Positions 3,541 through 23,610 of a DNA stretch of 64,000 nt are shown piece by piece. How positions within the stretch are numbered: position 1 is the first letter of the stretch; each line of letters opens with the position of its first letter. Source of the stretch: Paracyclopina nana (taxonomy: Eukaryota; Arthropoda; Copepoda; Cyclopoida; Cyclopettidae); the NCBI GenBank assembly GCA_019096065.1, contig JAGUCH010000002.1, positions 2,182,501 through 2,246,500 of the forward strand. The letters run 5' to 3'. The translations under genes and the position numbers were made by a program. Under the pieces are notes generated by a model. It saw only the letters and a list, made by a program, of their open reading frames with translations, was not told the origin of the DNA and made no database searches.

Positions 3541-3587
3541 CTGTCCATGTAGATGTGAACCATGCTTTTTCTCTTTTTTATTTCCCA

Positions 3588-5012: not shown

Positions 5013-5016
5013 TTTT

Positions 5017-6030: not shown

Positions 6031-6117
6031 TCGGTATCACAGAGTGTCAGCACCATTCCAAATTTGGAATTTCATCTGTCAATTTCAACTGGCACAACAA
6101 TAAGAAGGAGGCTAAAC

Positions 6118-7817: not shown

Positions 7818-8062
7818 TGGTGAATGAATGCATTGAGGGGGGTGGGGGGGTGGGTGGGGTGAAATTGCTTTCTCATTATGCTCCGCTTACTTAACTGCTG
7901 TTGGTCCCTCGGCTTTCTTTTTTTGTGCACCACCGTTAACTTTTTTTTTGCCCCACTTCTATTTGCATATATTTTTGGCACCTCTCTCTTTTTTTGGTAG
8001 ATGAATTTTTTCAACTTTTTTGGCATACCGCTTTTGGCCGAGGCCTTAACCGTGGCTCGGTA

Positions 8063-8599: not shown

Positions 8600-8791
8600 C
8601 AATTCAATCAGGAGGGGGGGAGGGGAAAGGGGCATAGAGAAACAATAAAACAACAACTTTGCCTACTTTTGCCCTCTACTTTTTTAACGCAAAAAAGGGT
8701 GGTTTTACGTTTTTTTAATGCCTAAATTGTATTTTTTTGCTTCCCCTAGATTATCCTAAGGCTCAACCCACGCGGGATATGGAAGCAAGCC

Positions 8792-9064
8792 ATGATGAAG
8801 AGGCCCCACCTCTCACTCGATGCATCACCCAGGCGCCCTACCGCCGCCAAGAGGAGGAGGAAGAGGAAGAAGGCGGCGCCGGCGCGGCGGCCCGCCTCAG
8901 CAGCAGCAGCGTGCCGGCGCGGAGGCGGCGCCCGGCCGCGGCGGGCATCCCAGCGGCGGCGACGGCGGCGGCGCGGGAAATTGACGAAGAAGGCATCCGC
9001 CAGCTTCTCAGACAATGTCCTGAGCCAAGTTTTGGCGAGGCTTCGCCTCGAGGGCCATCTATAA
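8792..9064 (+). CDS. Small, very basic protamine-like protein (90 aa)
   Basis: ATG at 8792. It is extremely rich in Arg, Lys and Ala, with runs such as KRRRKRKK and RRRRRRRGKLTKK, and ends in a short helix (DNVLSQVLARLRLEG). It resembles DNA-condensing core proteins of adenovirus type (pVII/pX) or protamines in composition only. The local GC content is much higher than in the neighbours. Its stop overlaps the start of the next frame in TAATG (9062-9066), suggesting reinitiation or coupled translation. A role in packing element DNA is inference. Confidence 0.6.
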   Translation: MMKRPHLSLDASPRRPTAAKRRRKRKKAAPARRPASAAAACRRGGGARPRRASQRRRRRRRGKLTKKASASFSDNVLSQVLARLRLEGHL

Positions 9065-9716
9065 TGAAGAAGGCGGCGCGCGATGAGGATGGGGGACGAG
9101 TGGCCCTCTTTCCCGTCCCACCGAGCAGCGGCTGGGCTGGCCCCAGGTCATCGAAAGGCCTAAGCATCTTGTTATGTCGCCCTTATCTCCAATGCCCCAT
9201 CACCCCTGATTGCCCGCACCCTCTACCGACCCCTGAGCTTGCTGACCACTATATGGCAGAGGGCACATTGTACTGCCGACCTGCCTATCATCGACTCATT
9301 CTTCGCCCAAAGTACCTTTCCTTTGGCTTTTCCGAGTGGCGCTACATTGCAAAAGAAGAGCATTTGTTTCTGATGGCGGATGGCGAGCCCCGTGTGCAGC
9401 ACTTTGTGGTGCTGGGCCAGAAAGCCAATAGTTTCACCTACACGATGCCGCTCACCGAGCTACGTGAGTTCAAGGAAGCCTTAAACGAAATTGAAGGTAC
9501 TGCACATACAGCGTTTATTATGCTCATTAGAAACGTTAATATTATTATACAAGCTGATAGTTCTTCAGCAATAAAAATATCAACTCTAACGTGGAGAGGG
9601 CTAAAAGCCCATAGATGATGAGGCATTTAATCTTGTGTCGCATACACCTCACAATCACTGGCTCATTGTTTTCTTTTCTTTCAGACTCGCTGACTGCATT
9701 GGCTTCAGCCCAATGA
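9064..9716 (+). CDS. Unknown Polinton protein, likely spliced, about 154 aa
   Basis: ATG at 9064, overlapping the previous stop. The main exon runs to 9496, and a GT-AG intron (about 9497-9684, long pyrimidine tract before CAG) leads to a short last exon that continues the frame to a stop at 9714-9716. Without splicing the frame ends at 9618 instead. The protein has a compact, aromatic-rich core (YHRLILRPKYLSFGFSEW, EEHLFLMAD, HFVVLGQ) and a C-terminal helix (TELREFKEALNEIE). The core pattern could be a single-stranded-DNA-binding or PC4-like fold, but I am not sure. Confidence 0.55.
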
Positions 9717-9796
9717 AGCGTCTCTTCGATCCTCATGCTACCATTGCGATTCTCACACTTTTTCTCTTATCCCCACCAATTTTGGCTTCTTAGGTC

Positions 9797-10477
9797 ATGC
9801 CTAAAGTCATACTTTGCCCTCGTTGCCGAAGCTTTCGTGCTTCTACCTACGCTCTTCTACGCAACCATCTTGAACAATGTCCGTTTCGCCCTCGCAGAGA
9901 GGCGACCCCCTCCTTGTATCAATGCCCACAATGTCCAGCATCATTTACCAGGCAGGCTACGCTTAGACATCACGCTAAAGTCCACGTTCCTAAACGCCAT
10001 TACTTCTGCCCCACTTGCAGACGCGTTTTTCGGACATCCGTTGCCTTATTTGCTCATCAGCATCATTGTAGCGTCAGTGAGTGTGCTCCCACCCAATGGA
10101 TGGAAACAACACCCGCTGCCTCCCAAAAAAGGAGCTTCGCCGCCAATTTCAATCTGATTTCTTTCGATGAGTTTTTGTCCCAACATTTGCACAGTGTTCC
10201 TTTGGGCCGGGACACAACCTTCAGTATCGTTTTCATATTACGCATGTCTAGGGAAGAGACTACCCTCGACATGCCAATAAGACTAGCCAGGAGACGCACT
10301 TCAACCGCCCTCCCCCAATCATCTATTCTAAAGCAATCCATCTCAGAGGCTAAAGCAAGAGCTGACAGCCTCGAGTCGTTGGAAGGGAGCGGTTGGTGCA
10401 ATCTTGGCATCATAAAAATTGTGCTGGACATTTGGCCATCATTGGTGTATGTGCTCCCACAAGGGAGAAAAAAGTGA
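9797..10477 (+). CDS. C2H2 zinc-finger protein of the Polinton
   Basis: ATG at 9797, 226 aa. Three Cys/His finger units stand at the N-terminus: CPRCRSF...HLEQC, CPQCPASFTRQATLRHHAKVH (a classic C2H2 finger with CxxC-x12-HxxxH) and CPTCRRVF...HQHHC. The rest has no known domain. It is likely a DNA- or RNA-binding regulator or a structural zinc protein. Its end overlaps a T/A-rich stretch, and a CAG acceptor-like site upstream near 9790 hints that a first exon may exist. Confidence 0.7.
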   Translation: MPKVILCPRCRSFRASTYALLRNHLEQCPFRPRREATPSLYQCPQCPASFTRQATLRHHAKVHVPKRHYFCPTCRRVFRTSVALFAHQHHCSVSECAPTQWMETTPAASQKRSFAANFNLISFDEFLSQHLHSVPLGRDTTFSIVFILRMSREETTLDMPIRLARRRTSTALPQSSILKQSISEAKARADSLESLEGSGWCNLGIIKIVLDIWPSLVYVLPQGRKK

Positions 10478-10683
10478 CGAAAAAAAGACCAAAAAAAACA
10501 TTAAAAGTGAAAAAAATTATCCTCTGAGGCAAAAGGGAAAAAAAAAGGCATAAAATTGACAAAAAAATGCATAAAGAATTAAAGTATGGTTCTTGCCCCA
10601 TTTTGCACCCCTCCCAGCACACAAAACACTCTTTTTTCTCACCGACACTGGTTTTTTGTTACAGATTTTGTTTGACGACAACA

Positions 10684-11340
10684 TGAACATGGAGATTCAA
10701 TTTGGTGTGCTCCGCCCAGTGGATGTCGATCGCTTCTTTTGGTGCATTGAATTCCATCTCCAAGCAGCAAAGGACAGCGCTGAATCGGGTACCATTGCTC
10801 TCACCGGCCTTGAGGGGCTTGATGGTTTTGAATGCAGTCAGGTGTGATATAGGTTATGCAGTAGCTTCAGCTTACATGCATTTTTTTTTACTCTAGGCAA
10901 TACATCGTGGCATCTTTCAATGTTATGAGCTCAAAGCTCACATCCATGCAATGAAGAGGATTGTCAAGGATTTTATGGCACTTCATGATCCCTCCAGCAT
11001 GATGACCTCACCCTATGTCTCTCATGTTGAGGCGCACATTCAAAGACGCACCATGCTGTCGCCTTTTGCATTCGCGAGGGTGTCAGCAATGCCACTCAAG
11101 ATTGTCAACATTGCCATTGAAGCAATCTTTTGCTTCGGCACATTGGATGATGATGCACTCAAGCGCACCTCGAGACTCATTACGAGGAACATGCGCACTG
11201 CGCAAGAAACTGTGACCAAGCTGGAGGCTCTAATTCCTAGTGGTCAAATCGAGGGGGCAAAGAGCGTACGCATTGACATCGGGGTTCGCATTAGAGAAGT
11301 GGCTGATGAGGATGAAGGTTTCAATGAGTTGATTGAATAG
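10684..11340 (+). CDS. Unknown Polinton protein, two exons, about 200 aa
   Basis: Exon 1 is 10684-10841 and exon 2 is 10897-11340; the 55-bp intron has GTGTGA at its donor and a T-rich tract with CTAG at its acceptor, and the frame continues across it. The product is helical, with conserved-looking stretches FGVLRPVDVDRFFWCIEF, IHRGIFQCYELKAHIHAMK and IVNIAIEAIFCFGTLDDDAL, and an acidic end. It sits directly before polymerase B. I do not recognise the family; a replication accessory or terminal-protein role would fit the position but is inference only. Confidence 0.55.
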
Positions 11341-11608
11341 CTTTTTTTAATGCATGCGTGTCCCATGATCTCATATTATTTTCTGATACCATTTTTTTTC
11401 CCAATACCTCCACTAGTCCATATCAACTAGTCCACCAATCATGGTGCATAATGATTTATTCATCACACGTAAATAAAAGCACATTCCACTTCTCGGTCAA
11501 ATTACTCTTCATTTAGACATGTCTGTTTTGCGGGACAGGTAGGCTTTCTCAGTCTTTCTCCCGTGCATAGAATTCCCACAGTTGACTCACTCATGTTCTT
11601 TAGTCGCC
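11341..11608 (+). promoter_or_regulatory. Upstream region of polymerase B
   Basis: AT-rich. It contains GTAAATAAAAGC near 11470 and a possible 5'-UTR intron: ACAGGTAGGC near 11536 reads as a donor and TTCTTTAG near 11597 as an acceptor, just before the ATG at 11609. Assignment is tentative. Confidence 0.3.
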
Positions 11609-14600
11609 ATGAGCATTCCTAGAGTGCAACACTTGAGACATTTTGACGTCAATGAGCGCGCCTCTTTTTACTACGCTCTGGCACACGCTATTGATTGCTC
11701 ACCCCAAGATTTTAATCAACCTCCTTTCACCGAGGATGAAATTGAGTTTGTGGAAAAATTTGTTCATCAAAACGGAAGAACCTTTAATTTTGCAATCCAT
11801 CTCTTCTCCTTGGAAAATGACAACAGCGTTCAGCCAATTGTTACAGCATTGCAAGCCCCTGAAAACTACAGGCCTAAGTACTTGGTTCCCCTCTTGAGAA
11901 TTCCATCAGCAGATGGCGAAACACAATGGAGATACTTGCTCATTGAAAACATCAACAAGTTTTTAGCTCCCTACAAGCATGGAGCTCAGGAATCAAGGAA
12001 CACACGTCGCAAATTTTGCGAAAGATGCTTAAACACCTTTTATTCATTTACCAAACTGGAAGAGCATCAAAGCAAGTGTTGCGTGTATTCCCATTACATC
12101 GATGGCACGTTTCCTGTTTTTGGTCCCGAGGAAATCATGCCACGAAGAACTGATGACGGTTTGCCTCCCATTCTACAATTTAAGAATACAAATCGTCAAA
12201 TACAAGCTCCAATCGTCATCTATGGTGACTTTGAGTCTGCTCTTTTGCCAACGCAACAGCCCTGCCAAAAGTGCGTCCTGGAAAAAACTGCTATAGGTGC
12301 AAAATGCAAATGCAACTCACACTCGGATTCACCATACACGGAGCAAACTCACTCTCATGAAGCCATTTCATATTCATTTGTGGTTGTTGACCATGAAAGC
12401 CGCCTTCTTCATGAAGCTTGGGATACTTGCGATGCTCGATGTGCTGGCACCAAATTTGTCCGAGCCTTGCTGGACCTGGAGCCTTTGCTGCTGAAAAAAA
12501 TTTCGGCCTCTGTCCCAGCTGCCTTGGGAGCCAGGGAATGGGATAGCTTTTTTGACGCTCCAAGATGCTGCTTGTGTCTGGAGCCTTTTGATCCTGTTTA
12601 TGACGTGAGGTATGGTTCCCAGCATCAACTCCCTGATGGATACCAGCGCATTGTGGCCCATCATAACCACAATTCTGGGGCTTTTATTGGTGCCGCTCAC
12701 CATGTTTGCAACATGAAAGCGGCTGATTCAGCTCAGAAAATTGTGGTGGTCATGCACAACCTTTTTCACTATGATGTTTCCTTCATTCTGAAAGGCATTG
12801 AAAATAACCACGTTCGAAGCATCAAAGCTTTGCCAAAAAACATGGAAAAGCTGAGGTGCCTGCAGTTCAACAGCTTCATTTGCATTGACAGTATGCATCA
12901 TTTGAACTCAAGCCTAGCCACTTTAGCCAAGACACTGGAAGCCAGCAACCACAAATATCCGATTCTTGCCCAATCGGATCTTTGCAAGAACAAGCAAGGA
13001 ACCTTTGATTTGAGTCGAAAAGAAAAACTTTTGACTAAAGCACCGTTTCCCTACCAGTTGGTGACCAGTGTTGAGTCTCTCAAGGTATGGCATGAGTTTC
13101 CCGCTCAGGATCACTTTTACAGCGACTTGATTCAAGACTTCTCAGCTACCAAAGAGGAACATGCTAAAGGCAAGGAACTCTTTAGAATGCTGGAATGTCA
13201 GACCATGCTAGACTACATGGTGGTGTACATGCATCTGGATACCCTGCTATTGGCAGAGGTCATGCAAGTGTACCGATCGCAAATGATGGAGACGCTGGGC
13301 CTTGAAAGTCTGAGGTACATGACTCTTCCATCGATGGGGTTTGATTCATTTCTCAAGCTCACCAAGGTTGAGCTAGAACTGTTGACCGATTTGGACACTT
13401 ACAAGCTGTTTGAGTCCCAAATCAGAGGAGGGCTATGCTCTGCCTCCATGCATCACACCACTAAAACCGATGATGCCTCAGTGTATTACATTGATGCAAA
13501 TAGCCTTTATTGCTCTTGCTTTATGCTAAGCTTGCCAGTTGGTGGTTTTCGGTGGCTCTCACCGGCAGAGGTGGAGCATTTCCCCCTGATGGATATCAAC
13601 CCCTTGGCAGAGGGGAAAGGGTACTTTGTTCTTGTTGACTTGCACTACCCCGCAAGTATCTGTTTGAAGACAAGTGACTTTCCACTCTGCCCTGAATCAC
13701 TGACGGTGGATCAAGACATGGTATCCGCCTTCACTAGGCGCCTCATGAAGGACATTGAGGGACGGGATAAGTTTCAACAAAAACTGCTCACAGCAACATA
13801 TTTTCCACGCAAGAATTACATGACCCACTTGGCAACGCTGCAAACTTATCTTAGGATAGGCATGCGATTGGACAAAATCCACTCAATTTTGGAATTTGAT
13901 CAGCGCCCCTTTGGCCAAGACTTTATGATGGATTTTCTTAAACGCAGAGCCAGGGCAAAGACAAAGTTTGAAGGCAACATGCTGAAGTCTATCCCCAACT
14001 CCATTTATGGAAAAACTAATGAGCAGGTACGGAGCTACATTGAGCTGAAAGTTTCTAAAAGACCCGTTGACATCCAAAAGTGGGTTAACTCATCAAACTT
14101 CAAGGGGTTCAAAGAGCTGGGCTCAGGATTGACATTTGTTTACATGCAACCAAAGCGTGTTCACCTGAATAAGCCAATTTACCTTGCTTTTGCCATTCTC
14201 GAGTTGGCCAAAAACAAAGTTTATAATGATTTGTACTTTGAATTTGCCGCTGTTTGGCCAGACAGTCTCTCAGTTCAGTACCATGACACAGATTCATACA
14301 TCATCAAAGTGGACAAGAAGAATGCCGATAAAGATTTGCACCGTCTCAAACATCTCTTAGATACTTCAAACTTTCCAAGAGAGCATGAAATGCATGATGA
14401 TTCACGTAAAAATCACCCGCATCTTTGGAAGCTTGAAGTGAATGGTGACGAAGAAATGTGTGTTGCACTTCGACCCAAGTCTTATGCGCTCAAGATAGCA
14501 AAGCAAGGTGCAACTTTGGTGCACAAGCGGTGCAAAGGTGTCCCCTCAAGACTAGTAGAAAAAGAGTTTACATTCGAGGACTACTTTCAAACCTACATTG

Positions 14601-14854
14601 AAAAAAAGAGAAAATACGCCACTTTTTACGGCATTCGCATGAAAACTTTTTTGCTTGGGACATATGGATTCAAAAAAAAATGCCTCACCATCACTGACCT
14701 CAAGCGTCATTGGTTTGATTGTTCCAACCACAGTTGTCCGCTTGGCTCACCTGAAATTGTCATTTTCAAGGGCAAATGCAGAAGATGTTTGGGGCTATCC
14801 CGAGTGGAGCAAGAAACCATGCTGAGGGAGTGGATGAATGCAAATAATGAATGA
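11609..14854 (+). CDS. polB: Protein-primed DNA polymerase B (Polinton pPolB)
   Basis: First ATG at 11609 gives 1081 aa. Exonuclease motif I is seen in IYGDFES (about residue 205). A Cys/His cluster with HHNHNSG and HHVCN lies near 350. Polymerase motif A is YYIDANSLY (about 628), motif B is KSIPNSIYGK (about 793), and motif C is YHDTDSY (about 891); DTDS carries the catalytic aspartates. An N-terminal zinc-type segment (CERCLNTFYSFTKLEEH...C) precedes the exonuclease. Protein-primed family B polymerases copy linear genomes from a terminal protein and are the signature replicase of Polintons. The frame looks whole. Confidence 0.95.
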   Translation: MSIPRVQHLRHFDVNERASFYYALAHAIDCSPQDFNQPPFTEDEIEFVEKFVHQNGRTFNFAIHLFSLENDNSVQPIVTALQAPENYRPKYLVPLLRIPSADGETQWRYLLIENINKFLAPYKHGAQESRNTRRKFCERCLNTFYSFTKLEEHQSKCCVYSHYIDGTFPVFGPEEIMPRRTDDGLPPILQFKNTNRQIQAPIVIYGDFESALLPTQQPCQKCVLEKTAIGAKCKCNSHSDSPYTEQTHSHEAISYSFVVVDHESRLLHEAWDTCDARCAGTKFVRALLDLEPLLLKKISASVPAALGAREWDSFFDAPRCCLCLEPFDPVYDVRYGSQHQLPDGYQRIVAHHNHNSGAFIGAAHHVCNMKAADSAQKIVVVMHNLFHYDVSFILKGIENNHVRSIKALPKNMEKLRCLQFNSFICIDSMHHLNSSLATLAKTLEASNHKYPILAQSDLCKNKQGTFDLSRKEKLLTKAPFPYQLVTSVESLKVWHEFPAQDHFYSDLIQDFSATKEEHAKGKELFRMLECQTMLDYMVVYMHLDTLLLAEVMQVYRSQMMETLGLESLRYMTLPSMGFDSFLKLTKVELELLTDLDTYKLFESQIRGGLCSASMHHTTKTDDASVYYIDANSLYCSCFMLSLPVGGFRWLSPAEVEHFPLMDINPLAEGKGYFVLVDLHYPASICLKTSDFPLCPESLTVDQDMVSAFTRRLMKDIEGRDKFQQKLLTATYFPRKNYMTHLATLQTYLRIGMRLDKIHSILEFDQRPFGQDFMMDFLKRRARAKTKFEGNMLKSIPNSIYGKTNEQVRSYIELKVSKRPVDIQKWVNSSNFKGFKELGSGLTFVYMQPKRVHLNKPIYLAFAILELAKNKVYNDLYFEFAAVWPDSLSVQYHDTDSYIIKVDKKNADKDLHRLKHLLDTSNFPREHEMHDDSRKNHPHLWKLEVNGDEEMCVALRPKSYALKIAKQGATLVHKRCKGVPSRLVEKEFTFEDYFQTYIEKKRKYATFYGIRMKTFLLGTYGFKKKCLTITDLKRHWFDCSNHSCPLGSPEIVIFKGKCRRCLGLSRVEQETMLREWMNANNE

Positions 14855-14979
14855 GGACTTTTTTTCCCTTTCTTATTGTCGTGCTTATTTACTACAACAA
14901 CCCATTTTTTTTTTATTCGGTTTTTTTTGGTTTTTATTTCAATCTCAGATCATAATAAAAAAATTCCAAGTTCACATAA

Positions 14980-15726
14980 CTAATGACTCCTCTTGAAAAT
15001 TAGATTGAGCACAACTTCTTCTTCAGGATGCTCCTCATCAAAGTTTACGAGCGCGCCTTCCAGAGTTCTGAGCTCAAACTCAATTCTTCTTACGCTTGAA
15101 ACTAAGATGGGTAAAAAGTGATGCGATGGTGGCTCATATGAAATGAAACCCTCTAAATTAGTTGTTTCAATTGGTACAATTCCAAGCGCTGGGAGCGTAA
15201 GCTTTCCAATGGGTTGAATTGGGACAGCATTGCAAGACACAACTATGCAATTGGGCGAAATACTGCTTCGCTGAACAGGCCGAGGAAATTCAATCTTGTG
15301 GCCATGATATTTAGCGCTCATTTGCTCTTTTTGAATTTGGGCACCCAAAAACTGGGCCAATTTTGCGCTCATAGAGAGGGTAAGCCTTGCATTGCTCTCT
15401 GGTGGGTGGAAAATGATGCACTGGTGGATGGGCTCCAAGTCCAACTTGACTCTATAATTGCTTTGCGACGTTACAGATTGCTTGAGCTCACCCACAGAGA
15501 GTATGCCTGATGGCATAATGATGTCAAATTCCTCAGCCATCTTATTTGCACTAGGGGCATACTCTTTGAGAATATGAATTCGCCTTTCTTCAACCGAGAG
15601 GTTGTTTGAAAACCGAGGGCTGAACATGACTGTTGCAAGGGCTAGGCTCCATTGCCCTACACTCAATTGAGATCCAAAAGAGAGAGAGGCAATTCTTCTT
15701 GCCTCCTCTTGATGTTGCAGTGGCAA
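14980..15726 (-). CDS. Capsid-associated protein A (minor capsid candidate)
   Basis: Open frame of up to 248 aa on the minus strand; the exact start is not fixed. Beta-rich in its second half, ending in RRIEFELRTLEGALVNFDEE followed by a VVLNLIF strand. This closing pattern (a strand, then D/E-x-x-G, then a short loop and a last strand) is shared with the next gene upstream and is common in Polinton minor capsid/penton-like proteins. It lies convergent to polymerase B. Assignment to the penton-like class is inference. Confidence 0.5.
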   Translation of the reverse strand: MPLQHQEEARRIASLSFGSQLSVGQWSLALATVMFSPRFSNNLSVEERRIHILKEYAPSANKMAEEFDIIMPSGILSVGELKQSVTSQSNYRVKLDLEPIHQCIIFHPPESNARLTLSMSAKLAQFLGAQIQKEQMSAKYHGHKIEFPRPVQRSSISPNCIVVSCNAVPIQPIGKLTLPALGIVPIETTNLEGFISYEPPSHHFLPILVSSVRRIEFELRTLEGALVNFDEEHPEEEVVLNLIFKRSH

Positions 15727-16446
15727 AGAATGTGTGTTCTCTCTTTTCTCCCATCGGTCTTGCTAACAGTCTGATAATTGTAGGCTTTGTGTTTGGTAGA
15801 AGTCTCAGTGGGTTTCCTTCAGAGTCAGATAACTGAATAACAAACTCAGATTCGAAATCTTTGGAAAGAGCAAAAAAGTGGGCATTTTTAAATTGCTTTT
15901 CAACATACACATGTTGCTGAGGCGATGCAACTTCCATGGATGCAATGATGGGTGGCCCAACAAATGGTGGGTGCAAAAGTTGGGGACAGGTCAGGTGCAC
16001 AATAGGCTTGTACAGTGTCGGCAGTGAATCTGAAAGGTTACCATTACTTGACAAGAAAACATAGTGTTGAGACTTGACCTTCCAGTGACGAATGCTCAAT
16101 GAGAAGTATGTTTCACCATCAACTTGGTGCTTTCCGTTGAATGATGCAACCTGGCTTGGCTCTGTATTTCTCCACAAGAACTTGAACAAACCTTCATGCA
16201 CCCACAAGTATGGGAAAGGGATTTGCAGAGTGGGATAGAGCAGGTAGACAGCATCTCTGGCAGGATCATAAGTTACTTTTAGGTGTGTTTGATTAGTGTG
16301 CTCTTTTGAGAGTAAAATGTTAAGTGAAACAAGGACAGGGGTACATGTTGCAGATAAATACCGGCTGAATTGAGCAATGACTCTTTTGAAACATCCAAGC
16401 CAGTATCAAGTAGTGCCATGGCCGGCAGATCAGGATTGATAGGCAT
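15590..16446 (-). CDS. Capsid-associated protein B (minor capsid candidate)
   Basis: Minus-strand coding region whose longest clear open part is 15590-16207; coding signal reaches upstream to about 16446, so a further exon or another start is likely. Beta-rich, with FKNAHFFALSKDFESEFVIQL, then SDSEGNPL and PTIIRLLARP, the same closing strand-turn-strand pattern as protein A. It overlaps protein A in another frame at 15590-15726. The two could be related parts of the vertex or internal capsid, which is inference. Confidence 0.45.
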
Positions 16447-16575
16447 AGATTCGTTGATGAAACTAGATGAAAAGCAAACTGAAAGCACCCCACATTCTAG
16501 GCCCCGCTCTTGGGCAACTTCACGCTAGCTAAATGAGGTGTTTCCGGTTTAGAAGTTAAGTGGAGAAGCATCTTT

Positions 16576-17655
16576 TTATTGTTTCTTGAAATTTTTACGA
16601 TGCAACTTTACTCTTAATGATGGTGGAGCCCCTTGAAAGTTGATGGTCCAATAGTCACCTTCTTTGCTTAGGATTTTGCCCACATGCAATTGAAGTGAAA
16701 GCTTGACCCCAGTGAGCTCTTCATTGCGAAACCTCCCCTCCAATGTGTCCTGGCCCTTTAAGTCAGTGAGAGTGTACAAGGGAATAGGCATTGTGTCGGC
16801 GATTTCCTTCACAATAAAAAGTTCGTTGGTAAAGTGGGCATTGAAGGATCGACCAAATTTGCCAAGGTCCCTTGAGATCCTGACAAGCTGTCCCACTTCA
16901 TACTTAGGCTTGCGCTTTGTTATCGATGCATAGCGCAACAAATTTGCCTCACGGATTCGCAGTTGCTCTTTGTGATCACGTTCCGCTTTTACAGGGCTTG
17001 TTCCTATGGCCCGATGTACCCGAAAGTTGTAACTTTTCACAAGTTTTGGGAGCACCTCAACAAAGGAGCTGGTGCTGTATTCAGTGCAGTATCTTGAAAT
17101 GAGCGATTTTAGAGTTTTGATGAAGGCTTCAGCAAAGCTAGCCTTCCCTAGGGTTCTTGGGACATGAAGCTTGATGCCTTTGGAATCAAGCCACAACCTA
17201 AATGGCCTATTGAGGAACTCGGTTCCCGCATCAACTATCAGTTTCCTAGCCTGGTGAATTTCTTCGTCAAACACCTTGGAGAAGGCGGCTAGCACAGTTG
17301 GTCCACGTTTGTTCTTTAATGGTACCACCCAAGCGAATCTGGTGAAAGAATCAATGATCACTAATTGATACTTGAACCCCTGATTGTACTTCTCTTGCTG
17401 AAAAAATGAGCACAAGTCCGCTTGAATTTGGTCGCGTTTGTGGTATACATAAATAGGGTTGTAGATTTTACTAGGCTTGGGCTGACGATGGACTGTGAAG
17501 ACATCTACAGATTTCAAGTACTCTTCAATTTCTTCATGGGACAGCTGCCCCTTGAAGAACTGATGAATCTTTTCAACGCCCGCAAAAGCAATTGGATGTC
17601 CAGGGATCGTATATTTATCTCTAAGCAGTTTGACGGCTCTTTTTAGCCTCGGCAT
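16576..17655 (-). CDS. int: Polinton integrase (retroviral-type DDE)
   Basis: ATG at 17655, 359 aa. The N-terminal part is a helical zinc-binding-like region (KIHQFFKGQLSHEEIEEYL). The rve core contains IQADLCSFF (D80), LIVDAGTEF (D142) and KASFAEAFIKTLKSL (E176), a D-x61-D-x33-E arrangement. The C-terminal part has a QLVRISRDLGKF...FTNELFIVKEI segment like the SH3/chromo-like tail of Polinton and LTR integrases. It inserts the element and makes the 6-bp duplication seen at its ends. The gene's start overlaps the end of the TFIIB-like gene by about 13 bp. The frame looks whole. Confidence 0.95.
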   Translation of the reverse strand: MPRLKRAVKLLRDKYTIPGHPIAFAGVEKIHQFFKGQLSHEEIEEYLKSVDVFTVHRQPKPSKIYNPIYVYHKRDQIQADLCSFFQQEKYNQGFKYQLVIIDSFTRFAWVVPLKNKRGPTVLAAFSKVFDEEIHQARKLIVDAGTEFLNRPFRLWLDSKGIKLHVPRTLGKASFAEAFIKTLKSLISRYCTEYSTSSFVEVLPKLVKSYNFRVHRAIGTSPVKAERDHKEQLRIREANLLRYASITKRKPKYEVGQLVRISRDLGKFGRSFNAHFTNELFIVKEIADTMPIPLYTLTDLKGQDTLEGRFRNEELTGVKLSLQLHVGKILSKEGDYWTINFQGAPPSLRVKLHRKNFKKQ

Positions 17656-18389
17656 GATGAATGATGGGATCTTCGCTCATTCGTTTTCTCTTTTCCCTTT
17701 TTGGTTTTTGAGGCTCTTTTGGTGCCTGAGGTTGGAGGGGTGATTCTTTCTCTTCTTCGCTTGCGCTTGCACAGGGCTGAAATGTCCAAATCATGCTTTT
17801 GCGAAAACCTGGATATTGCTTCCCTTGAAATCCCGCACGTTCTTGCTACCACCTCAGGGCAAATGTCTAAGGCACTTTTTTGGGCATACACAAGTATGTA
17901 AGCAGCTACCCAGGTTGATGGTGAATGTGATGAATGCCCAGGTGGATGCTCAGCGTAAATTAGATTTTCTAGGCACAAAGCTTGCCGCCTATCTAATCCG
18001 CAAAGGGTTCCAAACCGAGAGGCCAGCAGGGCAGGATGAAAAGGCTTTGATTCGGGAAACGTTACTTTTAGCCCTTGTGTTAGTCGCTTGATCGTCAATC
18101 CACAGACCGAACTTATCTCCTTAAGTGTGCGTGGAACACTCTCTTCCTTGCACAACTCATAGAGGCACACTGCATTGATGAGTGAACGTTGTGCCAGCCC
18201 CAACTTAGCTTTCACCAAGCTTTTGAACCGCTCTACAAGCACTAATGGCATGTGAATTCTCTCGAGAAGCTGGATCATTTCATCCTCTTCGGGAGCCATT
18301 TTTTTGCTAAGACATCTAGGGCAGAATGTAAATTGTCCTAGCGAGTCTTCATAGTCAAGGCAGTGGCACTCAAGGCTTTCCTTGTCCAT
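17643..18389 (-). CDS. TFIIB-like transcription initiation factor
   Basis: The frame opens at 18395 with a non-ATG codon; the first ATG is at 18389, giving 248 aa. A zinc ribbon stands at residues 8-26 (CHC, then CPRC 13 residues later). Two cyclin-like repeats follow: INAVCLYELCKEESVPRTLK with EISSVCGLTIKRLTQGLK, and SPSTWVAAYILVYAQKS with EVVARTCGISREAISR. These match TFIIB repeats (ACLYIACRQEGVPRTFKEI, SPISVAAAAIYMASQ, EIGDIAGVADVTIRQ) closely enough to be confident. The tail (about 205-248) is Lys/Arg-rich. TFIIB bridges TBP on DNA to RNA polymerase II. The neighbour is a TBP-like gene, overlapping by about 52 bp, so the two are probably expressed together. The match rests on remembered family sequences. 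Confidence 0.86.
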   Translation of the reverse strand: MDKESLECHCLDYEDSLGQFTFCPRCLSKKMAPEEDEMIQLLERIHMPLVLVERFKSLVKAKLGLAQRSLINAVCLYELCKEESVPRTLKEISSVCGLTIKRLTQGLKVTFPESKPFHPALLASRFGTLCGLDRRQALCLENLIYAEHPPGHSSHSPSTWVAAYILVYAQKSALDICPEVVARTCGISREAISRFSQKHDLDISALCKRKRRRERITPPTSGTKRASKTKKGKEKTNERRSHHSSCRG

Positions 18390-18910
18390 TGGCAAGCCTG
18401 AGCGGACAAACTTTTCAAAAAAATTGTTTTACCACTTTCGTATGAAACTGCAAGTACTTCACCAAAAGGGGTATTCACCTTAATATACAGGCCTGAGAAT
18501 AGCTCAGAATTAAGCCTAGTTTCAAAGTTTTCAAGGTGCTCAAGGTGCAGTTGTTGCTCCAGTTGACAATCCGTTGTTACGTTGTCAACTTTCAGGGACA
18601 CAATTGGAGATTGGGCTAAGCGCTCTATAAGTTTCGTTGCTTCCAAAACTTGATGGACAGTGGAGCACCCAGTAATGTTGCAGTGCTGGCTCCGTTGACC
18701 ACCAGACCTAAAGAAACTTATACGCAACGAGTTTGAGCAATAACACTGCAAGAAATTGTGGAAACTTTTGCACCTGATTTTCTCACTAACACACCGACCT
18801 TCTATATCTGAGAGAGAGCGGGGATTGACTTTTGCACTCAGTTTAACGTTTCGAACAACAACAGTTGGAAGGCTAGGATTGAGCGTTGTTGCTTCCTGCA
18901 CACCCAACAT
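18338..18910 (-). CDS. TBP-like protein (TATA-binding saddle)
   Basis: ATG at 18910, 190 aa. Two TBP-type repeats are visible. Repeat 1 is PTVVVRNVKLSAKVNPRSL, then LRISFFRSGGQ, then NITGCSTVHQVLEATKLI. Repeat 2 is VSLKVDNVTTDCQLEQQLHL, then NSELFSGLYIKV, then LAVSYESGKTIFLKSLS. Canonical TBP repeat 2 reads [20 protein letters not shown]...ELFPGLIYRM...LIFVSGKVVLTGAK, so order and spacing match. It is strongly diverged from cellular TBP. Its 5' end faces the major capsid gene across 100 bp. With the TFIIB-like gene it could form an element-specific pre-initiation complex (inference). Confidence 0.82.
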   Translation of the reverse strand: MLGVQEATTLNPSLPTVVVRNVKLSAKVNPRSLSDIEGRCVSEKIRCKSFHNFLQCYCSNSLRISFFRSGGQRSQHCNITGCSTVHQVLEATKLIERLAQSPIVSLKVDNVTTDCQLEQQLHLEHLENFETRLNSELFSGLYIKVNTPFGEVLAVSYESGKTIFLKSLSAQACQWTRKALSATALTMKTR

Positions 18911-19010
18911 TGAACTAAGCTCTTTTTTGTTCTCAGCCCTTTTTTGATCACTATTTCAATTACAAAAGAAACAACGTTTTTAACGCATCGGAAACGTATC
19001 TTGACACGCA
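18911..19010. promoter_or_regulatory. Divergent promoter between TBP-like and capsid genes
   Basis: A 100-bp gap between two divergent start codons must hold both promoters, or the 5' UTRs must overlap. It is A/T-rich with runs of T and A. I see no consensus TATA box, which is notable in an element that encodes a TBP-like factor. Confidence 0.45.
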
Positions 19011-20315
19011 ATGGATGAATTTAGGCATCAACAATCAAGCATTTTTGATACCTATCACAAAGATGCAGGATTGCTAAATGGACGCATTGTTTATTATGAT
19101 ACCCACAATCCTCTAAAAGATAGCTCAGTGCAAGAGTTTGTCATACCACCCAATGCTGACTACATTGATTTGTCTGCTACACGATTAATTGGGACTTTTA
19201 AAATTCAAAAAAAGAAGCTTGATAGTGGAGCAGAGGAGCTATTGGGAGATACAGATGATGTGAGTGTTGTCAATTATTGTCCATCCTCCTTTTGGCGACT
19301 TGTGACACTGGAACTGAACGGTGTTCCTGTGACAGACAATGGGTCATTCTCCTATATGCAAAAGGCATACATTGAAGCTTTGCTGAGCTTCGACAACGGC
19401 TACAAAAGCAGCTTTTTAAAGCATTCATGTTGCTGGGCTGCAGACACTGCCGGCAAGGAAGGCACTAACCACAAGAGCGGAGGCAATGTTGGCTACAATG
19501 AGCGAGCTGAAATGGTGAAGCACTCCAATGAAGTTGATTTTGAAACTTTTATTCATTTGGACTGCTTGAGAACTAACAAATATTTGCTTAATGGTGTTTC
19601 ACTCAAGTTTGCCTTTCATCGCAACAGTGATGACTTTTCCATCATCTCAAGCACTGCATCTACAACCCACACCTTTGAAGTCAAGCTGACAAAACTGAAG
19701 TTAGCTGTCAAATTTATCACTCTGCACCCTAAATTGGTAGAAAAGCATCAACAGCGACTATTGAAGAGCCCAGCTTTCTTCTACCACCCATTAGTCAAAG
19801 TTAACACCATCACTGTTCCAGCTGCCATTACTTCAACCACCTTTCAATCGGTGGTGGTAGGTGATTTGCCAAGGTTAATCATTGTTGGGTTTGTAGACTC
19901 CAATAACTTAAGTGGAACATTGAGAAACCCCTACATCTTTGCAAATCACGGGATCACTGATTTGTACTTTAGAAAACACGGCGAAATTGTGCAACCTGTG
20001 AATCAAAAATTAGATTATGAAAAGAACAAATACCTGCATTGGTACACACATTTCATCAGGACCCTTGGTCTTGGTGATCACCCAGAACGCATTCCTATCA
20101 GCTATGAAAGCTTCAAAAGTGGGAACAATTTTTATTGCCTTGATGTCCTGGGCTGTGGCACATCAGCCCCCATTCAACCCCAACAAGGATCTTTAGACAT
20201 CGGAGTTGTGTTCAAAAATGCCTTAGACAAATCACTCGTCATGTTTGTGTATGCAGTCTATGAATCAGGTTTCTCAGTTGATGCAGAGCGAAGAGTCACC
20301 TTTCATGCTCCTTAA
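19011..20315 (+). CDS. mcp: Major capsid protein (double jelly-roll type)
   Basis: ATG at 19011, 434 aa. It is beta-rich through its length, with the Polinton capsid pattern: an N-terminal VQEFVIPPNADYIDLSATRL strand set, then TFKI, then WRLVTLELNGVPVTDNGSFSYMQKAYIEALLSF (typical of the Polinton capsid 'YxxYxxxLLxxxxxxK' region), a variable loop, and a second barrel with LPRLIIVGFVDSNN and the FYCLDV...GSLDIGVVFKNAL ending. It lies directly before the packaging ATPase, the usual Polinton pairing. The frame looks whole. Confidence 0.9.
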   Translation: MDEFRHQQSSIFDTYHKDAGLLNGRIVYYDTHNPLKDSSVQEFVIPPNADYIDLSATRLIGTFKIQKKKLDSGAEELLGDTDDVSVVNYCPSSFWRLVTLELNGVPVTDNGSFSYMQKAYIEALLSFDNGYKSSFLKHSCCWAADTAGKEGTNHKSGGNVGYNERAEMVKHSNEVDFETFIHLDCLRTNKYLLNGVSLKFAFHRNSDDFSIISSTASTTHTFEVKLTKLKLAVKFITLHPKLVEKHQQRLLKSPAFFYHPLVKVNTITVPAAITSTTFQSVVVGDLPRLIIVGFVDSNNLSGTLRNPYIFANHGITDLYFRKHGEIVQPVNQKLDYEKNKYLHWYTHFIRTLGLGDHPERIPISYESFKSGNNFYCLDVLGCGTSAPIQPQQGSLDIGVVFKNALDKSLVMFVYAVYESGFSVDAERRVTFHAP

Positions 20316-20326
20316 AATAAAAAATA

Positions 20327-20998
20327 ATGTTTGACGTTTCACTACATCACCCCTTTTCAATGCTGGTAGTTGGCAGTTCTCAAACTGGCAAAACTACTTT
20401 CTGCATGCGATTCCTTCAGCACTTGAACAAGCTTGTCAAAGATCCGCCCAAAAATGTTGTCCTGTTTTACCAAGAATCCCAACCAAAGTATGATTTGATG
20501 CTAAAACAAGGTCTTGTCTCACGCACCATTCGAGGCATTCCCCATCAAAGTGAGCTGAAAGACCTTGCCAGGAGCTATCTGGATGAAGATCCTAGTGGGT
20601 CACTATTCATATTAGATGACTCATTGGCTGCCTTAGATGGAAATGGTCTAGAGTTGCTCTTTGCACAAACTGTGCACCATCAAAGGGTGTCAGTCATTCT
20701 AGTTTCGCAATCCCTTTTTTATAAATCTAGAGCTATGCGTACCATTTCACTGAACTCACAGTACTTGGTGCTCTTTAGAAATCCCAGAGATGCTCGCCAA
20801 GTCACAACCCTTGCCTCTCAAATTGGAGCTTATTCCCCCTCATTCTTTGTGGAAACATTCCAAAAAGCAACTCGACTTCCCTATGGCTATCTACTTATTG
20901 ATTTTACTGTGTGGCAATCGGACGTGGTGCGTTTACGATCCCGAATATTTGATGAAGAAAGCCCAATGATCACATTCCTCCCAGCATCATGCACCTAA
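20327..20998 (+). CDS. atp: Genome-packaging ATPase (FtsK/HerA, A32-like)
   Basis: ATG at 20327, 223 aa, 12 bp after the capsid stop. Walker A is VVGSSQTGKTTF (residues about 14-25), Walker B is SLFILDDSLAAL (about 96-107), and VSVILVSQSLFYKSRAMRTI is the sensor/arginine-finger region. This is the A32-type motor that pumps DNA into the capsid, a core Polinton gene. The tight spacing suggests one transcript with the capsid gene. The frame looks whole. Confidence 0.94.
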   Translation: MFDVSLHHPFSMLVVGSSQTGKTTFCMRFLQHLNKLVKDPPKNVVLFYQESQPKYDLMLKQGLVSRTIRGIPHQSELKDLARSYLDEDPSGSLFILDDSLAALDGNGLELLFAQTVHHQRVSVILVSQSLFYKSRAMRTISLNSQYLVLFRNPRDARQVTTLASQIGAYSPSFFVETFQKATRLPYGYLLIDFTVWQSDVVRLRSRIFDEESPMITFLPASCT

Positions 20999-21019
20999 GA
21001 AGATGGGCCTTGTAGTTGC

Positions 21020-21430
21020 ATGAGAGTCATGAAGTCTCTTACACCTGAAAAGTGTGCACTGGGCTTTCTGCAGGCTGTTTGCAACGCCAAGCCCCAGGAC
21101 AGGGGTGAAATATTAAAAAGGATTGATGATGCATCAGTAGATAAAATTTGTGAGGTTATCTACAATATCAACTATTCACGTATGCCAATGCCAGGTGGGA
21201 AAAAGAGCAAACTGAAAAAATTCTACCTAGACAACAAGCAAGATTTTGACTTTTTAATGAATAAAAACAAACCTTTGAAGAGTAAACGACAACGACTGCT
21301 GAAAAAAGAAAAAGAATTAACTACCATCATCAAGACTAGCCTGCCTCATCTTAGCTTGCTGTGCCATGAGACCAAAAAACTTCAAAAGCGCAGTGCAAAG
21401 CATGGCACTTGTGACTCTCCCAGTATATAA
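21020..21430 (+). CDS. Small basic Polinton protein (136 aa)
   Basis: ATG at 21020, 22 bp after the ATPase stop. Helical N-terminal half (CALGFLQAVCNAKPQDRGEI) and a Lys-rich second half (KKSKLKKFYLDNKQDFDFLM, KSKRQRLLKKEKEL). Composition and place, right after the capsid and ATPase genes, suggest a virion-associated DNA-binding protein, but no family is recognised. It overlaps the next gene by 65 bp in another frame. Confidence 0.5.
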   Translation: MRVMKSLTPEKCALGFLQAVCNAKPQDRGEILKRIDDASVDKICEVIYNINYSRMPMPGGKKSKLKKFYLDNKQDFDFLMNKNKPLKSKRQRLLKKEKELTTIIKTSLPHLSLLCHETKKLQKRSAKHGTCDSPSI

Positions 21431-21959
21431 TCGCTTTATCAGGAAACTTCAAGAAGAAATGAGAAGGGAAGAAGAAGATGAATTGAACCGACTGAATGAA
21501 ATGGGAGCAGCTGTAAGCATGTCAGAGCCTCCTCCACCAGTTGAGGTGCAAGAGCCAGAGAGGCAGCAAAATGATGAGCTTCTTCCAACATCAGGGGAAG
21601 CTCAATTGCAGCCGGTGACTGAGGTACCACCACCGATTGAAGAAGTTGCCCCAGAGCCGCAAATGATGCCAGAATCAAACACCATCATTGACCCCATGCA
21701 AGAACCACCCATGGAGATAGAAGAGGCACCACGCTTTGCTTGCTCCCTCTGTGGCTCTGAATTTACCCGTGGTAATTCACTAAAGCGGCATTTAAAAAAT
21801 ATTCATGCCCTTGGGGAAGCTCAGAAACGAAAAGTTGCCTCAGCCAGAGACCCAAAGACTCGCATTATGCCAGATTGGTATGATCGTCGTGCATTAGATA
21901 ATCATGCAACAAACAAAGTGAGAAAAACAGAGTCCAATGACTACAAAATGTGGAACTAA
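21366..21959 (+). CDS. Pro/Glu-rich protein with C-terminal C2H2 finger (197 aa)
   Basis: ATG at 21366, overlapping the previous gene. An N-terminal helix (NRFIRKLQEEMRREEEDELN) is followed by a long disordered Pro/Glu/Val-rich middle and one classic C2H2 finger near residue 125 (FACSLCGSEFTRGNSLKRHL ending in KNIH; CxxC-x12-H-x4-H). A basic tail follows. This could be a scaffold or regulator. The single finger is like the one in the 226-aa Polinton protein, hinting at a shared source. Confidence 0.6.
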   Translation: MRPKNFKSAVQSMALVTLPVYNRFIRKLQEEMRREEEDELNRLNEMGAAVSMSEPPPPVEVQEPERQQNDELLPTSGEAQLQPVTEVPPPIEEVAPEPQMMPESNTIIDPMQEPPMEIEEAPRFACSLCGSEFTRGNSLKRHLKNIHALGEAQKRKVASARDPKTRIMPDWYDRRALDNHATNKVRKTESNDYKMWN

Positions 21960-22006
21960 GCTTTCCGAATAAACTTGTATGATACATGTAAGAAATTTTT
22001 ATTTAT

Positions 22007-22546
22007 TTACGACAAAAAAGCTCTTACAGCACCAATCAACTGAGTTCTGCAGACAGGGCAGGTGTAGACTGAGGTTCCACAAACTAAACATGACACCACA
22101 TGGTGACATGGCAAAAATAGCATGCCAATTTCTCTGTGGTAGCATATTTTGCACTCATTTTTCAACGTTGACCTCCTAGCTTCTTCTATTTCATCATCTC
22201 CTTCATCCTTTTTCTGTTCACTGAGGATCCTGCTCGCTGTTGATCCAGTTAGCCATACTTGTCTTATGAACCGATCCCCTTTCATCAAACGGACATAGGG
22301 GCAGGTGGGGAACCATAATGTATGCTCAACCCAAGGATCCTCATTAGGCAACCATCTATGTATGCCACCATGGCAATAGTAGCAGTAGACACTATCTCCA
22401 CACCCAGAGTAAAAAAATCCTGCCTTTGCCATTTTAATAGGGCGTTGGGTTAAGCCAATAGGCCAAGTTGCAAATGATTTGAGTCTACTTTCCAGAGTAG
22501 CATACTTTTTGTTCATGGTTTCTCTAAATATAATTATATGATCCAT
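22007..22546 (-). CDS. iap: BIR-RING inhibitor of apoptosis, copy 1
   Basis: ATG at 22546, 179 aa. One BIR domain: residues about 12-80 with CYYC, then 16 residues, then H-x6-C (C-x2-C-x16-H-x6-C), the canonical zinc-binding pattern. A C-terminal RING follows: CKICYHREIGMLFLPCHHVV, then C-x2-C and CPVC. The BIR-RING layout is that of cellular and baculovirus IAPs, which bind caspases or pro-apoptotic peptides and act as ubiquitin ligases. It is related to copy 2 (the cores are clearly similar, with matching N-terminal stretches such as KYATLESRL), so it arose by duplication within the element. Blocking death of the host cell is the likely role. Confidence 0.92.
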   Translation of the reverse strand: MDHIIIFRETMNKKYATLESRLKSFATWPIGLTQRPIKMAKAGFFYSGCGDSVYCYYCHGGIHRWLPNEDPWVEHTLWFPTCPYVRLMKGDRFIRQVWLTGSTASRILSEQKKDEGDDEIEEARRSTLKNECKICYHREIGMLFLPCHHVVSCLVCGTSVYTCPVCRTQLIGAVRAFLS

Positions 22547-22768
22547 TTTTTTTAGCTCTCTCTCCTCCAGTCATCAAGAGGTGACTGACCACACAAAAAG
22601 TGCATTGCACTGGACCTGTGCTTTTGTTCATGAGAAAGCACTTGTTATGCACTACTTTTGTACCTGTGTGCATAAAACTACCAATTCTATTTTTTTACCT
22701 CATTTTGGTTCTGGGATGAAATTGAGACTTTATTTTCTGAGAAAACCTAATGAGCACATTAAAAAGAA

Positions 22769-23362
22769 TTAAGACAAAAAAGCTCTTGCTCCGCCAGTCA
22801 ACTGAATCCTACAGATAGGGCATCTGTTGACTGAGGTTCCACAAACTAGGCAAGACACCACATGGTTACAAGGTAAAAACATCATGTTGATCTCTCTTTT
22901 GTAACATATTTTGCACTCATTTTGGATTGTTGAGGTGTTACATTCTTCTTCTTCTTTCATTGCAAAATAGGGTTTTTTATCCTTCTCCTTCGTTCGTGGA
23001 TTCTTTGAGCAAATCATGCATGTTATGCATTCAAGTATTGAAAAGTCGTCGTCATTCTCTGCTCTCTCTGTGACAGTCTCTACATAACACTTTCCCTTCA
23101 TCAATCGGACATAGGGGCAATTGGGAGACCACAGAATATGTTCCTCCCAAGGATCAAACATCCTGATCCATTCTTCCCATTTATGATGACAATAATAGCA
23201 AAAAACAATATGACCAACCCCAGAGTAAAAAAATCCTGCCCTTGCCATCTCAAGTGGGGTTTGGATTAAGTATTTGGGCCAGGTGACAAATGAGTTGAGT
23301 CTACTTTCCAAAGTAGCATACTTGTGATTCATGGGTGCAACAAATTTGACTATTTCCTCCAT
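22769..23362 (-). CDS. iap: BIR-RING inhibitor of apoptosis, copy 2 (in the terminal repeat)
   Basis: ATG at 23362, 197 aa; the upstream open frame to 23392 has no ATG. BIR: CYYCHHKWEEWIRMFDPWEEH then 6 residues and C. RING: CKICYKREINMMFLPCNHVV, then CLVC and CPIC. Its 5' half lies within the right inverted repeat, and the same DNA is present in mirror image at the left end. So the gene's promoter and N-terminal part are shared by both element tips. A middle acidic/charged spacer differs from copy 1. Confidence 0.92.
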   Translation of the reverse strand: MEEIVKFVAPMNHKYATLESRLNSFVTWPKYLIQTPLEMARAGFFYSGVGHIVFCYYCHHKWEEWIRMFDPWEEHILWSPNCPYVRLMKGKCYVETVTERAENDDDFSILECITCMICSKNPRTKEKDKKPYFAMKEEEECNTSTIQNECKICYKREINMMFLPCNHVVSCLVCGTSVNRCPICRIQLTGGARAFLS

Positions 23363-23604
23363 TTTGAGCTCTTTATCCCCGTAGCAACTCAAGGTGACTG
23401 ACCCTCACCAAAAGTGCAATGCACTAAAAACTATGGTGCAACCCTGAGAAAGCACCTGTTTTGCACCTTGGTGCAATTGCACCTTTGCACCCCCACAAGG
23501 GTGCAAATTGCACTTACCCCTGAGTGCATTTTGGTTCCCACGCACTACTATGGGGCTTTCTAATTACCGCAATTGTGTCAGAGTGGTGTAGGTACTATAC
23601 AACA
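23150..23604. repeat. Right terminal inverted repeat
   Basis: Mirror image of about 1250-1705, ending TGTTGTATAGTACC when read from the outside. It is followed by the second copy of the 6-bp duplication, CGCGCC (23605-23610). It contains the GTGCA-word cluster (about 23414-23530) in front of IAP copy 2, which might act as its promoter region. Confidence 0.88.
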
Positions 23605-23610
23605 CGCGCC

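Follow-up and report, generated by a model that had tools for sequence, protein, structure and literature searches.

Why would a Polinton encode its own TBP-like and TFIIB-like proteins within a host that has TBP and TFIIB genes of its own? This question is raised by a stretch of 64,000 nucleotides from the copepod Paracyclopina nana (contig JAGUCH010000002.1), hereafter the window. Because distant relatives of the element in the same genome also carry the pair, the sequences suggest that the element probably steers host RNA polymerase to its own genes.

The element spans 22,355 bp (1250..23604) and, as a preliminary description of the locus had proposed, is a Polinton, which is established by its ends, target-site duplication, integrase and polymerase. 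Its limits were read from a repeat pair, the ends and the duplication, and a search for terminal inverted repeats (TIRs) returned the same ends (C2:2183750-2206104). The TIRs (1250..1610, plus strand; 23244..23604, minus strand) are 361 bp long after trimming of a 366-nt pair at 99% and are common to six elements, and the 6-bp duplication CGCGCC, read for the window copy only, lies on both sides (1244..1249 and 23605..23610). A type-B DNA polymerase of the Polinton kind (11582..14854, plus strand) matched PF03175 at 12686-13696 with an E-value of 2.8e-17 when a 337-aa piece of its frame was used and of 2.9e-15 in a six-frame search; neither the whole frame nor a 782-aa piece produced an hmmscan match. 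The retroviral-type integrase (16576..17655, minus strand; Pfam rve, 3.4e-10) is followed by the TFIIB-like gene (17643..18389, minus strand) and the TBP-like gene (18338..18910, minus strand), and a divergent region of 100 bp (18911..19010), the presumed promoter region, separates the latter from a putative major capsid gene (19011..20315, plus strand). The pair had been placed between integrase and capsid genes, and its position fits that description, although the capsid, double jelly-roll assignment included, is recognised by no library and is named from its place, size and neighbours, with relatives at 14 other places. A candidate packaging-type ATPase (20327..20998, plus strand) matched AAA_22 (2.6e-4) and Pox_A32 (8.4e-4), both under the curated Pfam cut-offs, and two IAP-like proteins with BIR and RING domains are encoded on the minus strand (22007..22546 and 22769..23392). 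Among 17 ORFs of the element that were scanned, no RNA polymerase was recognised and Pfam recognised no adenain-like protease; Rfam returned nothing at gathering scores within 1200-23700.

Both minus-strand frames are open and overlap as described. The TBP-like frame encodes 190 aa from its ATG, and the TFIIB-like frame is open from a TTG at 18395, with its first ATG at 18389. Counted from this ATG, the two frames overlap by 52 nt, and the TFIIB and integrase frames overlap by 13 nt.

The identification as TBP held up against profiles, as did the claim of two saddle repeats, the first of them through relatives and alignment. In the window copy alone, Pfam TBP matched repeat 2 only (8.3e-7, aa 106-173). 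A family profile, built from seven of the copies in this genome, matched solved TBPs at 2.9e-15, and a profile-profile match to TBP ran over the full length. In the top match to solved TBPs, repeat 2 of the query accounts for both aligned stretches; a single stretch of the profile (15-194) covers both repeats of the archaeal TBP 2z8u. Residues 11-95 of the family E protein match the first repeat of a TBP model, and residues 11-194 match a TBP model. Repeat 1 of the window protein is assigned from its relatives and the alignment, as it is not recognisable in that copy alone. Pfam by itself is weak for the family D protein (0.025).

For the TFIIB-like protein, the two cyclin repeats of the preliminary description were recovered, whereas the zinc ribbon proved degenerate (CxC...CxxC) and without a Pfam ribbon match in the window copy. 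Families C, E and F match Zn_Ribbon_TF (1.1e-4, 1.5e-4 and 2.9e-3), each below the curated cut-off. This copy alone matched human TFIIB at 2.8e-8 and Pfam TFIIB at 23.5 bits, just below the cut-off of 23.6; a family profile, built from six of the copies in this genome, aligned both cyclin repeats with residues 104-287 of human TFIIB at 9.6e-25. Pfam by itself is again weak for some relatives (family D TFIIB, 0.18; family C TFIIB repeat, 0.041). AlphaFold2 models made from single sequences were poor (pLDDT 38.7 for the TBP-like and 46.4 for the TFIIB-like protein), and in Foldseek TBP and TFIIB ranked first without significance (E 0.12 and 0.35); the low-confidence TFIIB-like model contains ten core helices.

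Neither ground on which the preliminary description would have been given up applies: the profile matches are significant, and the pair is not confined to the window. It adjoins 14 of the 15 places found in this genome with the capsid query. These fall into six families, with capsid identities of 25-59% to the window protein. The profiles behind this count were made from seven (TBP) and six (TFIIB) of the very copies counted, but in most families the pair was also found independently by single-sequence and Pfam searches. Frames are uninterrupted for TBP at 11 of these 14 places and for TFIIB at 10. Seven aligned Polinton TBPs, with each of the six families represented, group in a single clade (100/100), in trees without giant-virus rows, as none were obtained from IMG/VR. 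The TBP and TFIIB trees disagree on the placement of families C and D, and neither alternative is rejected. Where measurable, purifying selection acts on both genes, with dN/dS values of 0.18 (D1-D2) and 0.11 (E-F) for TBP and 0.17 (D1-D2) for TFIIB; those of integrase and capsid are 0.05-0.08. In another Polinton lineage of this genome, the 3.9 kb that were read contained no such pair. Among the viral contigs of IMG/VR, no relative of the TFIIB was found by sequence and none of TFIIB, TBP, integrase or capsid by profile, but the patterns were few and this is weak evidence of absence; no relative of host TFIIB or host TBP was returned either, again with few patterns.

We then consider what the pair does. 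Four positions that we take to be DNA-intercalating are aromatic in all seven aligned Polinton TBPs, whereas two of them are lost in host TRF2, the product of a TRF2-like gene that the host has beside its canonical TBP (the labels TRF2 and Brf1 are our own, presumptive assignments by reading). In the same alignment, the first Asn is present in 7/7 and the second in 6/7. The Polinton TBPs lack an intact acidic pair at the place in the C-terminal stirrup that contacts TFIIB: its first Glu, present in 13/13 cellular sequences (host TBP, TRF2 and 11 archaeal), is Asn or Gln in 7/7, and its second Glu is kept in 6/7. The facing TFIIB residue, which we presume to be Arg ordinarily, is Lys, Lys, Lys, Gln and Leu in five Polinton TFIIBs.

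This pattern of conservation lends support to a candidate initiation complex that is specific to the element and works with host Pol II. The TBP homologue would bind and bend promoter DNA of the element, and the bridge from it to host RNA polymerase II would be the TFIIB homologue that the element encodes, not the TFIIB of the host. Genes of the element, most likely the capsid, ATPase and neighbours transcribed away from the pair, which may be late genes, would then be expressed free of the host's regulated initiation. We consider it reasonably likely that the proteins are such a dedicated pair, bringing host Pol II to the promoters of the element, and perhaps orthogonal to the host's. This reading builds on sequence homology, on the recurrence and order of the genes and the purifying selection on them, on DNA-contact positions that are conserved and a TFIIB-contact position that is not, and on the host having factors of its own. 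A more far-reaching proposal, to which we give an even chance, is that the pair is a core gene set in an ancient lineage of animal Polintons, has become orthogonal to the host's through the changes at the stirrup Glu and the Arg opposite, and acts as a minimal virus-specific initiation complex, able to capture host Pol II with no viral polymerase.

The pair could instead act as a decoy or dominant negative that shuts off host initiation, by competing at host promoters or by binding host Pol II. The TFIIB zinc ribbon docks on polymerase, and the degenerate ribbon of families A and B, where few residues separate it from the first cyclin repeat and leave little room for a B-reader and B-linker, would be in keeping with a non-productive TFIIB. 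The ordinary ribbon cysteines are retained in families C, D and E, however. Furthermore, every family has kept the DNA-contact positions and altered the one that contacts TFIIB, which argues for a working, separate pair, and we regard a decoy as unlikely.

TBP-fold proteins bend DNA, and in families A-D the genes for TBP, TFIIB and integrase follow one another on a single strand, both of which would suit a role in DNA transactions rather than transcription, with a DNA-bending complex at the terminal repeats or origin aiding integrase or replication. In families E and F, however, TFIIB and integrase are separated by a further frame. Moreover, three derivative elements that share these TIRs have an integrase and a nearly complete polymerase but neither TBP nor the core of TFIIB; they still occupy three sites, although help in trans is possible. 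We judge this role to be quite improbable.

It is very unlikely that the pair serves RNA polymerase III, with a Brf1-like factor, or simply adds to the dosage of host TFIIB and TBP. TBP does serve all three polymerases, but the TFIIB family profile matched Brf1 at only 1.4e-3, far behind its match to human TFIIB, which fits Pol II, and the window proteins are 16% (TBP) and 23% (TFIIB) identical to those of the host in the alignment, unlike extra copies. A recent, functionless one-off capture of host genes, for which no supporting evidence was found, is already refuted by recurrence of the pair at the same place in six divergent families, and has a negligible chance in view of the single TBP clade, purifying selection and low identity to host factors.

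No shared promoter motif above chance was found upstream of 17 element ORFs, some starts being assumed: the best 8-mer occurred in 9 regions (shuffle mean 7.8, maximum 11), the best 7-mer in 12 (mean 11.1, maximum 13) and the best 9-mer in 7 (mean 5.8, maximum 7). We count this against a dedicated pair, together with the poor structure models and the degenerate ribbon of families A and B with its little room for B-reader and linker. The weak Pfam matches of some relatives, the discord between the two trees and the Polinton lineage that showed no pair in the part read are further points on that side.

Giant viruses have TFIIB genes, and eukaryotic DNA viruses with TFIIB or TBP-like genes resemble the Polinton in this respect, but their genomes are much larger than its 22 kb. 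TBP is reported in 59% of mirusvirus genomes, one of which measures 431.5 kb, and that gene cluster in 0% of Nucleocytoviricota (PMC10132985); for African swine fever virus, a TBP-like protein has been predicted (PMC5825884). Vaccinia VITF-3 and VETF/Rap94 are likewise virus-encoded TBP/TFIIB pairs (PMC12917281), the large subunit of VITF-3 having a three-part TBP fold, but poxviruses encode their own RNA polymerase, whereas no polymerase gene of that kind was recognised among the 17 ORFs scanned in the element. KSHV ORF24, a TBP-like protein that acts on host Pol II at viral late promoters and needs its TBP phenylalanines (PMC12529657), is one of the six members of a viral complex (PMC6541308). 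The beta- and gammaherpesvirus pre-initiation complex resembles the Polinton system, as a functional analogy only, in its reliance on host Pol II and a TBP-like protein; ORF24 may not bind TFIIB directly (PMC12529657), whereas the Polinton pairs a two-repeat TBP with a TFIIB homologue.

Literature on Polintons or Mavericks and general transcription factors, covered as titles and abstract openings, with term look-ups in PMC10675990, PMC10132985, PMC11071308, PMC10120064, PMC12220804, PMC4642659 and PMC8097293, yielded no report of such a pair; PMC12638062 and PMC12085832 mention both Polinton and TFIIB. TATA-binding proteins are named for elements that lack double jelly-roll capsid genes and are linked there to mirusviruses (PMC10675990). 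The pair may offer a natural, possibly orthogonal TBP-TFIIB system in an animal nucleus, small enough for work on promoter specificity, and could be a source or sink of the TBP and TFIIB genes of larger viruses.

The window element shares TIRs, polymerase, integrase and accessory genes with vertebrate Mavericks/Polintons, and its candidate ATPase and putative capsid genes would correspond to theirs (PMC8097293). The account of the gene content in that paper names neither TBP nor TFIIB, and the words 'transcription', 'TATA' and 'TFIIB' are absent from its text. The commonest ends of the vertebrate elements begin AGT or AG (PMC8097293), whereas those of the window element begin TGTTGTATAG.

The Polinton at 1250-23604 measures 22,355 bp in all, ends in inverted repeats (TIRs) of 361 bp and has CGCGCC on either side. 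It encodes an rve-type integrase, a type-B polymerase (PF03175 at 2.8e-17 on a piece, the whole frame giving no match), an ATPase with weak matches, a putative capsid recognised by no library and, at 22007-23392, a tandem pair of BIR-RING (IAP-like) genes, the second partly within the TIR. The two overlapping minus-strand genes reported in the preliminary description are real, and both frames are open: a TBP-like gene at 18338-18910 (190 aa) and a TFIIB-like gene at 17643-18395 (250 aa; first ATG at 18389). The capsid and TBP genes are divergent, with 100 bp between them, and TBP is followed by TFIIB and then integrase, with overlaps of 52 nt (TBP/TFIIB) and 13 nt (TFIIB/integrase). In family B, one of six Polinton families (A-F) of this genome that bear the pair, the TBP/TFIIB overlap is 40 nt and the start context, TTG-CCA-ATG, is that of the window copy, which belongs to family A. 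Upstream regions of the element ORFs yielded no motif above shuffles.

Taken alone, the window TBP matched Pfam TBP at 8.3e-7, via its second repeat, and the window TFIIB matched human TFIIB at 2.8e-8. Profiles built from seven related TBPs and six related TFIIBs of the same genome gave significant matches that bear out the assignments proposed earlier: at best 2.9e-15 against solved TBPs, with both stretches of the top match formed by the query's second repeat, and 9.6e-25 against human TFIIB (residues 104-287). One stretch of the TBP profile (15-194) covered both repeats of an archaeal TBP (2.9e-12 for that chain), and the TFIIB profile also matched archaeal TFB (5.4e-11), yeast TFIIB (6.1e-5) and a Brf1 fusion (1.4e-3). 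In profile-profile comparisons, the TBP family matched the host TBP/TRF2-like pair with an E of 1.6e-8 and the TFIIB family matched the host TFIIB/Brf1-like pair with an E of 4e-16. These resemblances are not chance, and we regard the identity of the two proteins as nearly certain. Pfam matches were uneven across relatives, both for TBP (B 6.3e-6, C 1.2e-8, D 0.025, E 1.4e-10, F 2.9e-10) and for the TFIIB repeat (B 4.4e-10, C 0.041, D 0.18, E 2.1e-4; one F piece 1.6e-5). The cyclin part of the TFIIB make-up described earlier stands, while the zinc ribbon is reduced in family A to CxC...CxxC, and there is too little sequence ahead of its cyclin repeats to accommodate a complete reader and linker. 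Family D TFIIBs (L013:251-1420, minus strand; L014:2004-3179, plus strand; both stretches of this genome) have two CxxH...CxxC stretches N-terminal to the cyclin repeats, as if the ribbon were doubled. AlphaFold2 models from single sequences had pLDDT of 38.7 and 46.4, with secondary structure like the TBP second repeat and like two five-helix cyclin folds; Foldseek ranked a TBP (E 0.12) and human TFIIB (E 0.35) first, a ranking that carries little weight.

Searches covered the genome from which the window comes (92 Mb in 10 contigs), and all counts from them are lower bounds. TFIIB, TBP, integrase and capsid queries landed on the same places, with at least 15 for capsid. Using profiles built from the pair, we found both genes adjoining capsid at 14 of the 15 (A, D and F three each, C and E two each, B one), which argues against a one-off insertion, the outcome that the preliminary description had held against its own reading. 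The fifteenth, degraded place (C3:8996259) showed neither gene within the 3.4 kb examined. Of the 14 places, 11 have an uninterrupted TBP frame and 10 an uninterrupted TFIIB frame; TFIIB is broken into pieces in every F copy and in one of the two C copies. Both proteins are identical among the three A copies. Family-to-family identities span 21-70% (TBP), 18-44% (TFIIB, F excluded), 28-82% (integrase) and 25-83% (capsid); the capsid rows of C, E and F are of part length. At C9:805000-835000, two family C elements lie in mirror-image arrangement, together spanning about 30 kb.

In a tree of Polinton, host and archaeal TBPs, with no giant-virus rows, the phylogenetic check raised earlier returned the Polinton TBPs as a single clade (100/100), with long branches that make its position among TBPs no more than tentative. 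Among families, the FastTree trees of TBP and capsid share a topology that places C with A+B, and those of integrase and TFIIB share one that places D there (supports of 0.86-0.95 at those forks); under a better model, the C/D forks had supports of 67-93. AU tests rejected the alternative in none of the four genes (p = 0.22, 0.07, 0.12 and 0.29). A and B are joined in all four trees (left open for integrase), and E and F wherever both are included. Given this agreement and the AU results, the simplest reading would be one old acquisition followed by vertical descent; the alternative is that TBP-capsid and TFIIB-integrase halves were exchanged between families. The C-versus-D conflict, which is not significant, divides between TBP and TFIIB.

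The TBP alignment comprised seven Polinton sequences, drawn from the 14 copies and representing every family, together with 11 archaeal TBPs, host TBP and the TRF2-like protein. All four positions that we take to be intercalating are aromatic in 7/7 Polinton TBPs; at these positions the TRF2-like protein shows a gap, W, H and F. The first DNA-facing Asn is retained in 7/7 and the second in 6/7. In the C-terminal stirrup, the first Glu position holds Glu in 13/13 cellular rows and Asn (A-D) or Gln (E, F) in 7/7 Polinton rows; the second Glu is retained in 6/7. The TFIIB arginine facing the stirrup Glu, presumably R169 in human numbering, corresponds to Lys (A, B, D), Gln (E) or Leu (C). According to published work, TFIIB interaction depends critically on conserved acidic residues of TBP (PMC12529657). 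These substitutions are consistent with a pair that has diverged from that of the host, in a comparison that is alignment-dependent and draws on few sequences. In TBP repeat 1, HxNxTG replaces the host's KMVCTG, and its H, N, T and G are invariant across the seven rows. Between family D copies D1 and D2, dN/dS was 0.18 for TBP (0.11 for E-F) and 0.17 for TFIIB. Integrase and capsid, by comparison, gave 0.05-0.08. For D2-D3, changes were too sparse to yield most ratios, and synonymous sites were saturated in the A-B comparison. TBP and TFIIB seem to change faster than integrase and capsid in D1-D2, where proteins differ by 8% and 2%, respectively.

The host genome has a canonical TBP and TFIIB of its own, plus genes that we read as TRF2-like and Brf1-like, which indicates that the Polinton pair is additional; as aligned here, the window TBP shares 16% and the window TFIIB 23% of residues with their host counterparts. 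The best explanation, which we consider somewhat probable, is that an element-dedicated TBP-TFIIB pair would use host Pol II. Rival readings are that the pair acts in integration or replication, that it serves Pol III, or that it causes host shut-off. For a dedicated pair on host Pol II, the herpesvirus ORF24 system is nearest in mechanism, and poxvirus TBP/TFIIB pairs are nearest in composition; poxviruses, however, supply their own polymerase, whereas a Pfam scan of 17 element ORFs recognised no RNA polymerase. No description of a Polinton bearing both genes came up in the portions of the literature searched.

Another lineage (C9:6279k, C9:1663k, C1:16555k, C4:2812k) has integrase, matches capsid weakly (1e-6 to 1.1e-5) and has polymerase matches within about 10 kb. 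Profiles detected no TBP or TFIIB within the 3.9 kb examined at each of the four places, and none of the TBP or TFIIB matches listed by the genome-wide searches falls there. In L042, a stretch of this lineage, capsid, integrase and a frame read as ATPase share one strand. Family A TIRs are common to three further elements (C7:4629676-4651482, C3:1716846-1738649, C9:2260531-2282347). In each, one polymerase frame survives (99% over residues 1-1082 of 1090, interrupted by a stop in one element), as does at least one stop-free integrase match. These derivatives pair one good with one decayed polymerase, and integrase matches lie near both ends in inverted orientation. None of the three matched capsid, ATPase or TBP, and all that remains of TFIIB is its C-terminal 73 residues; the capsid-ATPase-TBP-TFIIB stretch was lost by deletion, with one junction readable near 1500 of L006. 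Mobility therefore does not seem to require the pair in cis, though it may be supplied in trans. The deletion only hints that the pair belongs to the virion or late module, because the deleted genes are neighbours.

Within the window element, two adjacent frames at 3405-3813 give Ras-family matches (2.4e-5 and 6.3e-6) and look like a split host gene fragment, presumably of Rab14 type. Around it, retroelement parts with an RT/RNase H/rve polyprotein lie at 23578-25479 and 33024-41024, identical 300-nt repeats lie 44.6 kb apart (211-510 and 44845-45144), and the final codons of a frame that we read as glycoprotein-like, which has no Pfam match, fall within the Polinton TIR. The Polinton seems nested within a large LTR-type retroelement. 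ARAGORN called a plus-strand tRNA-Asn at 33423-33503, within the retroelement polyprotein frame, a call that is probably spurious or derived.
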